64,000 bases of DNA from NCBI RefSeq assembly GCF_003387355.1, contig NZ_QUNH01000002.1, positions 599,606 through 663,605 on the forward strand, given 5' to 3'. The notes under the pieces are model-generated. The model did not search any database. It was not told where the DNA came from and saw only the letters and a program-made list of their open reading frames with translations. The position numbers and the translations under genes were made by a program. The stretch comes from Winogradskyella sediminis (GTDB lineage Bacteria; Bacteroidota; Bacteroidia; Flavobacteriales; Flavobacteriaceae). This document shows positions 10,084 through 45,719 of this stretch, one piece after another (position 1 is the stretch's first letter; each line of letters opens with the position of its first letter).

Positions 10084-10171
10084 AATAAAAGGTTTTAGTC
10101 GCATGTAATGGTCTTGTGTAAGATTTCGATGCGTGTTAAAACATTAAAGTTAGCAAATAAATTACGGATAG

Positions 10172-10237
10172 AAAGTCTTCGAGGACTTTTGTAAATCGGC
10201 TAGAACTAGCAATGAATTATACACTGTGTTGGCAGTA
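10172..10237. repeat. structured intergenic element ending in GTTGGCAGTA
   Basis: Between the DUF6090 stop and the DUF305 start lie two small hairpins: AAAGTC/GACTTT (10172-10177 with 10184-10189) and GCTAG/CTAGC (10199-10203 with 10206-10210). They are followed by GTTGGCAGTA at 10228-10237. The last ten bases are the exact reverse complement of 11569-11578 on the other side of the two-gene unit. The element may be a recombination or cassette boundary. Confidence 0.5.
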
Positions 10238-10238
10238 G

Positions 10239-11002
10239 TTATTTATTCTTTGTATTTATTTTTAAATCAATCTCATTTATTAAATCCTTTATATTTTTTT
10301 GCAACTCTAACAATACACTTCTAGAAAAATCAATTTGCATAGACATTTGGATTAAACTACTAATTGTTTTTTCGTCATTATTAAGACCAACTACATATTC
10401 TTGGTTCTGTAACTCAAAATCTAGTCCTGTAAGATTTTTAAGAGACCAATTACTTATTGTTTTGGAATAATATATTCTTTAAATTGTCTCGTTTTATTTT
10501 TAGCCACCTCCATTGCGCCTAAATTTTTAGAGGTGCTTAAATAATATTGGGTTAAGAGATTTTTTAACTCTCTTTTTTTTATCAGTTCTATGTTTCCAGA
10601 ATAAATCAAATTATTATAACCAGCACTTTTAGAAATAAACTCTCTAATTTCAAAAATGATACCCGTTGTAAAATATTTTAAAAGTTTATTCCTATTTTCT
10701 TTTGAAGGTTTATTTTCAGAGATAATTTGTAAAATATTATAAATTTCTATTTTCTTGGCTTTATGAAATTTTGAAATTTCATTAATTTGAATTGAGTCAG
10801 CTACTAAATTCTCTCTAATTTCAGATAGTAAAATTATTTCTTTTTTAGAGTTTTGGTATGAATTATTAATTTTATTAATCCATAGTGCAATTAAAATACC
10901 AATTACTACAAGAACAATCTCTCCAATTGCATATATAAAATATTTACGAAATCTATTTTCTTTTATTATTTTTTTGCGGAATGTTCTAAAAATTTTAGCC
11001 AT
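10239..11002 (-). pseudogene. DUF6090-family membrane protein, frameshifted
   Basis: The intact frame starts at 11002 and stops at 10454 after 182 residues. It has the DUF6090 hallmarks: basic N-terminus, then one membrane helix (AIGEIVLVVIGILIALWIN), then a helical periplasmic domain. DUF6090 proteins usually have about 250 residues. The missing end is present in another frame of the same strand: from about 10478 down to a TAA at 10239-10241 it reads NWSLKNLTGLDFELQNQEYV and continues helical. That is the expected DUF6090 C-terminus. Rejoining the frames gives about 254 residues. The shift lies between 10456 and 10478, near a run of four A on the coding strand, and fits loss of one base. It may be a real mutation or a sequencing error. 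Confidence 0.75.
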
Positions 11003-11028
11003 TTTTTAAGTTGTTAATATTTAAAAAC

Positions 11029-11538
11029 TTAAAATTTATATTTAAAATACAATCCTGTTTCTAATATCGCACCAGGTGATTCGCTATTGAAAGTTGAAAT
11101 AATCCTAAATCCATATTCATAATCATCAGTTTGAGAAATAAATGCTCTAACTCCTAAATCCATACCAAATCCACTGCCATCATCTAAATTTAATTTATCA
11201 TCGAAGTCCATATAAGAAAAACCCATTATTGAGGCTATTCCAAATTTTGAATCTTCTGAATTAAATCTATAATCAACGTTAAAATAATATTTACCGACAT
11301 TGTAATCGTCATTAATCAAATCACTGTCAATTGTTCCATTTAAAAATCCTAGTATTAAATTTATTTTATTTGTTGCTTGGTATCCAATTCCAACACCATA
11401 TGCTAATTCTGCGTCGTTTTTAATTAATAGTGACGTTCCGTGAATTTCAGCATTAAATTTTGATTGAGCGACAATTGTCATTGGTAAGACTAATAAAATT
11501 ACTAAAAGTATTTTTTTTATTTTCATTTTCATTTTCAT
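11029..11538 (-). CDS. outer-membrane beta-barrel protein (porin-like)
   Basis: A small outer-membrane beta-barrel protein of about 170 residues. A signal peptide is visible (KKILLVILLVLPMTIVAQ). Alternating hydrophobic strands follow (YGVGIGYQATNKINLILGF, YYFNVDYRF, FGIASIMGFSYMDF), and the protein ends in the typical aromatic strand LYFKYKF. I moved the start to one of three in-frame ATGs (11538, 11532 or 11526). The frame is open further up to a TTG at 11577, but that codon lies inside the inverted repeat and gives a poor leader. The DUF6090 gene follows on the same strand after 26 bases, so the two are probably a unit. Confidence 0.82.
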   Translation of the reverse strand: MKMKMKIKKILLVILLVLPMTIVAQSKFNAEIHGTSLLIKNDAELAYGVGIGYQATNKINLILGFLNGTIDSDLINDDYNVGKYYFNVDYRFNSEDSKFGIASIMGFSYMDFDDKLNLDDGSGFGMDLGVRAFISQTDDYEYGFRIISTFNSESPGAILETGLYFKYKF

Positions 11539-11568
11539 TTTTATTTTATGGTTAATATTGAGTTTAAT

Positions 11569-11760
11569 TACTGCCAACGTCTATATACCACCAATATTAT
11601 CGTTATTAACCCTTTTAGTTATCCTGATAACTACTGTGATGTTTTGGCATATACGCAATGCATAAAACTAAGTAATTTTACACTAAGTTTTGTACGTAAC
11701 TTTACGTATATGGCTTAAATATAAGTGCGTTATGGCTATGGTATATACGGTTTGCCGTAA
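11569..11760. repeat. inverted-repeat-bounded intergenic element
   Basis: The stretch is bounded by an imperfect inverted repeat of about 21 bases: 11569-11589 (begins TACTGCCAAC, ends TATATACC) and 11740-11760 (begins GGTATATA, ends GCCGTAA). The left ten bases also match 10228-10237 in reverse orientation. No gene is seen inside. It resembles a folded recombination site or a small mobile noncoding element. Confidence 0.5.
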
Positions 11761-11807
11761 AGTCCTTAAAAAAAAAGGCTAATGTTAGGTACACAAACGT
11801 TTAAATT

Positions 11808-44525: not shown

Positions 44526-45719
44526 ATGGGTAACCGACTTAAAATAGCTGTTTTTTCAGGAACCATACCGAGTACCACCTTTATAGAGCATTTAATTAAA
44601 GGCGTGTCTCAAACTCATGAGGTGTACTTATTTGGGGTTCAAACTAATCCTGTGGCGTATGAATCTGATCGTATTGCAGTCTATAACACTCCAAAATCTC
44701 ATATAAAGAATGCCGTTGTCAGTAGTTATAGACTAATGCAATTGGTTATTAAATCGCCAAAAGATGCGGTGAAATTATATCGACATACCTCTCAATTTAA
44801 TAAACGCTATGATCGCTGGATTCGGTTTACAAAACTGTTGCCAATGGTCTTATATAAGCCTGATGTATTGCATGTTCAGTGGGCTAAAGATATCGCGTTC
44901 TACAAGGTGTTACAAGATTTATTTGGAGTTCCGATTGTCGTGAGTTTGCGTGGTGCTCATATTAATTATACGCCTATAGTCGATTTGCAAATTGCAACAA
45001 TTTATAAACAGGAATTCCCCAAAATAATAGCCTTCCACGCCGTTTCTAAGGCTATTGGAGAAGAGGCTAAGCGATATGGTGCTTCAGCTGGTGCAATTCA
45101 AATTATTCATTCTCCTATTCCGTCTTTCTTTTTTGAGCATTATAAGCCCTGCATAACGGTACAAGACAAAACTATACGATTGGTTTCTGTTGGGCGTTTT
45201 CATTGGAAGAAAAATTATGAATCCGCGTTACATACCATAGCCATTTTAAAGCATAAAGGCTATCGTATTCACTATACTATTATAGGACCAGACGAGTTTA
45301 CAGAAGCGCTATTATTTCAATGCCATCAGCTCAATTTAGTTGAAGACGTTACTTTGGTTGGATCGATGTCCCAATCGGAATTAATTCCGTTTTTACAGCA
45401 ATTTCACGGCATGTTGCTACCAAGTGTAGAAGAAGGTATTGCTAATGTTGTATTAGAAGCTATGGCGATTGGCTTACCTGTTGTGTCTACAGATTGCGGT
45501 GGGATGGCAGAAGTGGTAATTCCTAAAGAGACGGGTTGGTTGGTGCCCGTTAGAGATGCAGAAGCGATGGCTGACGCTGTGATAGATTTAAGTATAACTT
45601 CCAAATTAGAATTGCATACGATAACAAAACGTGCCCACCAGTTTGTAAAGCGGGAGTTTAATGCTGAGGATAGCATTTCTAAATTTATGAGAATGTATGA
45701 AGGGGTTGTTGGTGGTTGA
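44526..45719 (+). CDS. glycosyltransferase family 4, tandem paralogue
   Basis: A 397-residue GT-B enzyme. IAVFSGTIPSTTFIE at the N-terminus, VSVGRFHWKKN at the linker and SVEEGIANVVLEAMAIGLPV at the C-terminus match the gene at 43211 closely, so the two arose by duplication. Different middle parts may mean different acceptors. TACCTTTG at 44483-44490 is a possible -7 element, although its -33 element is poorly placed. Confidence 0.9.
   Translation: MGNRLKIAVFSGTIPSTTFIEHLIKGVSQTHEVYLFGVQTNPVAYESDRIAVYNTPKSHIKNAVVSSYRLMQLVIKSPKDAVKLYRHTSQFNKRYDRWIRFTKLLPMVLYKPDVLHVQWAKDIAFYKVLQDLFGVPIVVSLRGAHINYTPIVDLQIATIYKQEFPKIIAFHAVSKAIGEEAKRYGASAGAIQIIHSPIPSFFFEHYKPCITVQDKTIRLVSVGRFHWKKNYESALHTIAILKHKGYRIHYTIIGPDEFTEALLFQCHQLNLVEDVTLVGSMSQSELIPFLQQFHGMLLPSVEEGIANVVLEAMAIGLPVVSTDCGGMAEVVIPKETGWLVPVRDAEAMADAVIDLSITSKLELHTITKRAHQFVKREFNAEDSISKFMRMYEGVVGG

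Follow-up and report, generated by a model that had tools for sequence, protein, structure and literature searches.

Why are two adjacent genes in Winogradskyella sediminis, one for a beta-barrel protein and one for a DUF6090 protein, bracketed by the two halves of an inverted repeat? In the window, the whole stretch of 64,000 nucleotides that was analysed, GTTGGCAGTA occurs twice, at 10228-10237 on the plus strand and at 11569-11578 on the minus strand, where 0.08 occurrences are expected and none of 100 shuffles reaches two. The first-pass annotation had described a perfect 10-base inverted repeat around the two genes, a reading that it would have given up if the match were common by chance. 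Both copies do flank the pair, and chance does not account for the match. The repeat extends to 14 nt with one mismatch (10228-10241 and 11565-11578). The textbook example of gene stockpiling is the integron, and the pair is very probably a cassette of an integron-type system with a tyrosine recombinase other than IntI. The anatomy of this system is that of an integron, but its enzyme does not fit the definition.

The cassette unit is placed at 10109-11577 on the minus strand, running from TT at the 5' boundary up to the base that precedes the mutated R' cut point, by analogy with 101 units of the same genome and by homology with a relative. The other features of the locus lie on the minus strand as well. 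The cassette 5' end, G|TTGGCAGTA (11565-11578), is the R' box that completes the site in the circular form. The 3' arm, TACTGCCAAC (10228-10241), is the R'' box. It is the complement of the 5' end of the same cassette, apart from an A.C opposition at position 11; GTTGGCAGTA and TACTGCCAAC are one instance of a cassette-specific pair of matched ends. The beta-barrel gene (11029-11526) has a weak OMP_b-brl match below the Pfam cut-off. The DUF6090 gene (10454-11002) is broken and encodes 182 aa, whereas the homologous cassette of a relative, G019, has a frame of 254 aa; in G019 the interrupted frame is that of the beta-barrel gene and not that of DUF6090.

Downstream of the minus-strand DUF6090 gene lies a site of 118 nt (10110-10227), between AAC and the mutated R' box. 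Small hairpins had been noticed beside this left copy of the repeat; a folded element is present, but it is one 118-nt repeated site and not several hairpins. As an attC-like site (L'', variable top, L') it is supported by matches to the R1 model, by nhmmer and by its repeats in the genome, with a covariance-model match at 10105-10234 (102.6 bits, E 2.3e-20), and it ends in ATT, not GTT. The only other R1 match in the window, 44841-44915, was taken as chance (E 0.47). The imperfect repeat reported on the right-hand side (11569-11589 and 11740-11760) was found to be the foot of a longer folded region, a second attC-like region at 11569-11762 that precedes the cassette and belongs to a different site subtype. 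Its predicted DNA fold is -24.3 for the top and -23.5 for the bottom strand, without a shuffle control. When the 59 other genomes of the genus were searched with a 197-nt query (11572-11768), 4 gave partial matches of 74-77%. The window pair is a decayed, isolated and stray cassette of a large movable set. The copy is probably inert because ATT replaces the usual GTT at its far boundary and because its DUF6090 gene is broken.

The 118-nt palindromic stretch has at least 40 copies in the genome (40 of the 81 first-look candidates scored). Searches with iterated profiles in nhmmer (E <= 0.01) found 128 copies, a number that includes partial ones, in 303 kb of the organism's own contigs; copies are present in 22 of the 33 stretches that make up this sequence. 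These stretches were chosen mainly for known matches or as small contigs, and since most were fetched for having matches the density of sites is not a genome average. Within every stretch the orientation of the sites is uniform, with the exception of a single copy on C18, and consecutive sites are spaced 0.3-2 kb apart, mostly with one gene between them. Published attC sites are 57-142 nt long, have AAC and GTT ends and show end pairing of 9-11 nt for most cassettes, according to passages of PMC2727003. The bounds and the size are met here: 97 of 101 units have both boundary trinucleotides, and from AAC to GTT 95 of the 101 measure 112-126 nt, two measure 107 and 139 nt and four measure 182-187 nt. 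The longest open reading frame is co-oriented with the site in 89 of the 101 units, opposite in 4 and absent (below 40 aa) in 8. It starts at a median of 28 nt from the cassette 5' end (quartiles 19-110), and a second frame of at least 60 aa is present in 21 of the 89 co-oriented units. Tandem cassettes with mostly one co-oriented gene each, as expected of an integron, are therefore present. At four places (C2:1-160, C18:1-160, the end of C12 and the C2:1206000 region) a stretch of about 27 nt, TAAATTTAATGAATTGTAAACTTAAGA, precedes sites without an R'' box; it could mark the end of an array or a point where insertion is preferred.

The ends of the cassettes follow a rule. Read as its reverse complement, the 5' end of a cassette (G|TT+N7) matches the 3' end of the same cassette, letters 4-10 after GTT being compared with the letters before AAC. 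In the 102 cassettes shorter than 3.5 kb, from 104 intervals, the mean match is 6.32 of 7; at least 6 positions match in 90 cassettes and fewer in 12, one of which has none. When the 3' ends are dealt to other cassettes the mean is 2.65 and 3% reach 6 or more, and the two arms that flank one linear site have a mean match of 2.98 (117 sites). Chains in 12 IntI stretches of the same phylum, taken for a comparison of end-repeat length, were barely, if at all, longer than in shuffled sequence and offer no contrast either way. Because the 5' end pairs with the 3' end of the same cassette, the full palindrome exists only in the circular cassette, and the complete attC of an integron likewise exists only in the circle. 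Letters 4-9 match in 89-98% of cassettes and letter 10 in 68%, which meets the published end pairing. In 83 of 97 cassettes the top strand has A opposite C (A.C) at position 11, and pairing resumes at positions 12-14 (87, 90 and 85%, versus 61, 47 and 51% when shuffled).

The same kind of opposition is found in the other arm of the site. The L-arm has A.C at two positions, in 95 of 95 and in 88 of 95 sites, and among the top-strand non-Watson-Crick oppositions at positions 4-14 of the R-arm there are 105 A.C versus 8 G.T, the rest being other mismatches. In 46 sites both sides of the L-arm have changed in 8 of 13 pairs, with a covariation score of 0.293 versus 0.059 when shuffled; none of 500 shuffles scored as high, and slid versions of the structure scored at most 0.090. 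The tested structure had itself been built on this alignment, which biases the test towards it. The mean predicted DNA fold of circular sites is -22.0 for the top and -26.6 for the bottom strand, that of linear sites -17.8 and -20.9 and that of mononucleotide-shuffled sequence -9.8 (means from the 95 of 101 units of standard size), and on the top strand the circular form lies below the linear form in 87 of the 95. Stems and covariation are thus supported and the bottom strand is the more stable in prediction; mismatches are seen, but single extrahelical bases not clearly. Top-strand A.C oppositions are G.T wobbles on the bottom strand, which therefore has the better predicted fold and probably serves as the substrate.

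Which enzyme would act on these sites? A tyrosine recombinase of 401 aa is encoded in the same genome on contig C3 (423300-424505), after a yebC-like gene that was named by eye. The sequence TATATAACACG|TTGGCATTAAT, 27 nt past its stop codon, is the start of a first cassette whose 3' end is AATGCCAAC. A homologue was found in 59 of the 99 genomes searched, the own genome included, and the loci of 34 relatives were taken. Where relatives have the attI-like junction, it lies 27-125 nt after the stop. Counting the own locus, 24 of 35 loci have, no more than 300 nt past the recombinase stop, the start of a GTT cassette whose ends match; of the other 11, 6 have less than 500 nt of contig left and 5 lack a matched first cassette. 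The position expected of attI, beside the recombinase gene, is thus found in 24 of the 29 testable loci, on the evidence of position only. In a control on random windows of these loci, from which the arrays were not excluded, 112 of 700 gave a match as well (16%). R237, K262, H326, R329, H352 and Y361 are invariant in 26 aligned recombinases, and we take these to be the catalytic residues. No Pfam family matched the N-terminal ~100 residues, and no relative of P0001 was found in viral_contigs. In one relative (G072, locus L112) a member of the recombinase family has no detectable array behind it; another use or a lost array is possible.

The segment that sets IntI apart is missing from this enzyme. 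In the passages concerned, PMC2727003 describes an additional segment that IntI requires for activity, PMC9668308 treats an IntI-specific additional domain as defining and required, and PMC8138268 reports incomplete conservation of the insertion in its integron-like subgroup. The recombinase does not have the insertion of about 42 residues that defines integron integrases. It matches the integron-integrase model TIGR02249 in two pieces with 196.6 bits (cut-off 265), and between the matched stretches, where the gap corresponds to the IntI-specific segment, IntI4 has 63 residues and the recombinase 20. The distance from KGxKDR to HxLRH is 64 aa in nearly all relatives with the motif pattern, a few having 63 or 67. 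Of 12 IntI references, 11 have 106 aa and one lacks the motif; four named loci also have 106 aa, and XerC/D rows have 71-73 aa. In a tree of 73 rows IntI (9 rows) and Xer (12 rows) each form a clade at 100/100, and the recombinase falls outside both. Thirty-eight rows, all from Bacteroidota except one without a named phylum, group together at 90/93; support for this clade is moderate, and an array has not been shown for each row. Four patescibacterial recombinases without the IntI insertion (L186, L187, L190 and L205) branch, with weak support, nearer to IntI than the Bacteroidota enzymes do.

Predicted structure leaves room for a distant relationship. The AlphaFold model of the homologue from Algibacter onchidii (mean pLDDT 82.5, pTM 0.55) has IntI4 and archaeal Xer chains as its best Foldseek matches. 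At the top of the VIA-align results are the archaeal Xer 4a8e (Z 23.5, rmsd 8.5, 255 residues aligned), XerA 5hxy (Z 20.8, rmsd 14.4, 241 aligned) and DNA-bound IntI4, 2a3v (Z 19.1, rmsd 4.0, 250 aligned). Because the closest solved folds include the IntI4-DNA structure besides archaeal Xer, the enzyme may, as far as a predicted model can tell, be a remote IntI cousin rather than an unrelated enzyme.

The sites meet most published attC criteria (PMC2727003, in the passages cited above) and a true IntI occurs over cut-off in 84 of 296 genomes of the phylum, and it could be argued that the clusters are relics of ordinary integrons, once moved by an IntI that has since been lost from the genome. 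This is very unlikely. No IntI over cut-off was found in the own genome, and among the 85 genomes of the phylum with an IntI match at E <= 1e-60, 84 are related at the level of the phylum and one at that of the class; none belongs to the own family. The 20 genomes listed as having no IntI match are all the own genome or members of the own genus or family; a further 191 lie beyond that listing. The arrays, moreover, start directly behind a dedicated recombinase that is not IntI in 24 of the 29 testable loci.

Xer-dependent modules at dif-like sites are known from other bacteria. Could the host XerC/XerD move the cassettes at sites of this kind? The core of the recombinase does resemble XerA, with 218.5 bits against the NCBIfam model NF040815, whose cut-off of 220 is not reached, and the host has Xer-like genes of its own (L052 and L055, our naming). 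The recombinase scores far lower than required for XerC (184.4 bits, cut-off 335.2) or XerD (183.1 bits, cut-off 329.6), however, and the enzyme beside the arrays lies outside the XerC/D clade. Nor are the sites short and dif-like: they are long palindromes that fold and whose arms are specific to the cassette. A role for XerC/XerD is accordingly given very little credence, and an integron-type system with its own recombinase remains the preferred reading.

Within such a system, the two genes of the window need not have formed one circular unit; the ends might be remnants of two cassettes. That the upstream site belongs to another subtype and that one boundary carries a mutation speak for this. 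Against it, the same two genes are found together elsewhere in G019 with 85% identity over 1309 nt, with a near-identical 3' end and between decayed sites, which makes two remnants a highly improbable origin for the pair and a single cassette the better account.

The first-pass annotation would also have been refuted by flanks that were fixed around the same two genes in all relatives, and this is not what is found. In most relatives' lipoprotein loci secA and the neighbouring lipoprotein gene are adjacent. Across the lipoprotein gene from secA, in the 8-12 kb taken from 11 relatives, the number of sites varies from 0 (five relatives, including G019) to 11 (G035), and no match to the beta-barrel or DUF6090 proteins was found there at E 1e-8 in any of the 11. 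One of the partial matches to the longer right-hand subtype, in G014, lies at most 6 kb from the same lipoprotein gene. A literal empty site of the window cassette was not found; the locus is instead variable among relatives. A mobile gene cassette with folded recombination sites, and not a transposon, had been proposed, and more than 100 site copies, cassette-specific ends and the presence of the pair at another locus in another species support this, with recombination inferred and not demonstrated. The proposal needs correction in that what was seen as a repeat forms the R''/R' arm of an integron-type site, with letters that vary between cassettes, the recombinase is on another contig and the window copy looks inactive.

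Like cassettes are found in unlike surroundings. Among the 101 own units there are four pairs of like cassettes with different neighbours, in which the similarity starts at CG|TT. A cassette of 713 nt is 100% identical in G041, with exact boundaries, although the recombinase of that relative is only 53% identical. One cassette type of about 850 nt (own C8) is 89-91% identical in four relatives, and in G000 (the own genome), G055 and G052 an attI-like stretch in common is followed by different first cassettes. With one genome per species in the sample, gain or loss at the level of strains is not visible. In two of the four relatives (L148 and L135) both ends of the ~850-nt cassette have changed together (GTTGTAAGTA.. 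to GTTGTGGTTA..), with a body about 90% identical to C8, a case of compensatory evolution at the ends; by inference, mutual correction of the two arms within a hairpin would produce such a matched change. A dispersed MITE- or REP-like repeat or a terminator, with the bracketing as a by-product, would have numerous, palindromic and intergenic copies as seen here, but hardly the end rule in 102 cassettes, the order site-gene-site-gene in one orientation or exact-ended units in new contexts, and the Rfam search of the window locus gave no match; the transposon, MITE and terminator readings were rejected.

The cassettes carry diverse genes. Among the matches listed for the 88 cassette proteins scanned are acetyltransferases, ParE and YoeB toxins, a restriction enzyme, and Abi-type and other candidate defence proteins. 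An rve domain, the core of transposases, occurs in one of the 88 proteins; an array may thus harbour an insertion sequence.

How does this system compare with those already known? It resembles the chromosomal integrons or superintegrons of the Vibrio type (IntI, attI, attC) in its one-orientation single-gene cassettes, AAC/GTT ends and end pairing of about 10 nt, in the L stem, spacer and variable top of its sites, in the attI-like point beside the recombinase gene and in cassettes common to several species. It differs from IntI integrons in that the recombinase lies outside the IntI clade, has a spacing of 64 instead of 106 aa and an extra N-terminal part, is encoded in the same direction as the array, and goes with fixed A.C oppositions instead of clear single extrahelical bases. 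The window cassette, C2:804000 and the clusters at the secA locus of relatives are like CALIN or isolated attC sites, with no recombinase of the family noted in the stretches read; unlike CALIN, clusters of the window type belong to the site family of a recombinase that is not IntI. With the XerA-type archaeal recombinases the enzyme shares the core spacing and its best NCBIfam score, but it differs from them in having folded-site arrays, an attI-like junction, an extra N-terminal part and a place in a clade with other Bacteroidota enzymes. The passages and section 7 of PMC8138268 make no link between the integron-like simple tyrosine recombinases and cassette arrays. Integrons as such have been reported in the phylum: intI genes in the Bacteroidetes/Chlorobi group (in part of PMC2426708), integrons in Bacteroidota (in passages of PMC8618304) and a complete integron in Salinibacter (in a passage of PMC9024848). 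For Flavobacteriaceae no description of a system such as this one was found in open-licence PMC papers, judged by titles and the starts of abstracts among the matches listed.

The sequences themselves show the arrays, the end rule, covariation in the stems, the recurrence of identical, exactly bounded cassettes in new contexts, an attI-like junction and the lack of the IntI insertion. In the mechanism proposed from them, a recombinase with a XerA/IntI-like core, no IntI insertion and an extra N-terminal part of about 100 residues would cut at G|TT. Circular cassettes would be inserted at the attI-like junction behind the recombinase's own gene, and exchange between attC-like sites would build arrays of mostly single-gene cassettes. 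The full site in the circle would consist of an R stem of about 10 bp, the conserved A.C opposition, further pairs, a spacer, the L stem and a variable top, and the putative substrate would be the bottom strand, with G.T wobbles in place of A.C. It is an inference that this recombinase does the cutting, as are the cut point, the use of a single-stranded bottom strand and ongoing exchange. Recombination itself is inferred, no circle, cleavage or exchange having been observed.

A wider reading is that the Bacteroidota hold a second, separately evolved class of integron, in which a recombinase without the IntI domain works on folded single-stranded sites, the fixed A.C (top) or G.T (bottom) oppositions rather than IntI pockets pick the bottom strand, and correction of mismatches in the hairpin keeps the ends matched. 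Whether this is right we regard as evenly balanced. What looks like the gene-cassette economy of integrons is in any case found across a large family, beside an enzyme that lacks a domain held to be required. It can be inferred that surveys calling complete integrons by an IntI profile (IntegronFinder, as described in part of PMC9668308) would not count the system as one. A large and little-examined pool of cassettes, including toxin, restriction and candidate defence genes, would be exposed, and the question of which part of IntI is needed for using folded DNA becomes directly testable.

With no more than 11 candidates scored in any genome and a threshold of E <= 1e-6, the R1 site model, built from 46 aligned sites, matches 247 of 299 genomes of the family and 202 of 236 genera. 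For the recombinase family, with a threshold of E <= 1e-90 and up to 6 candidates scored in each genome, the counts are 180 of the 299 genomes and 145 of the 236 genera. Since genomes with sites outnumber those with the recombinase, some may use another enzyme or hold relics. More distant relatives have the same end rule with other sites, such as the ~55-nt sites of Rufibacter. In Rufibacter sp. SYSU D00344 (L161:10944-17972) a chain of 14 cassettes, whose very short sites mostly measure about 55 nt from AAC to GTT, lies behind a recombinase frame of 489 aa with the 64-aa spacing, and several of these cassettes also have the position-11 opposition. No match to the site was found in phage records. 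Sites are present on five plasmid records, and the system also rides on plasmids. Four site places are found on CP116298.1 and two on CP116296.1, both from Tenacibaculum finnmarkense, and ten on NZ_AP025294.1 from Persicobacter.
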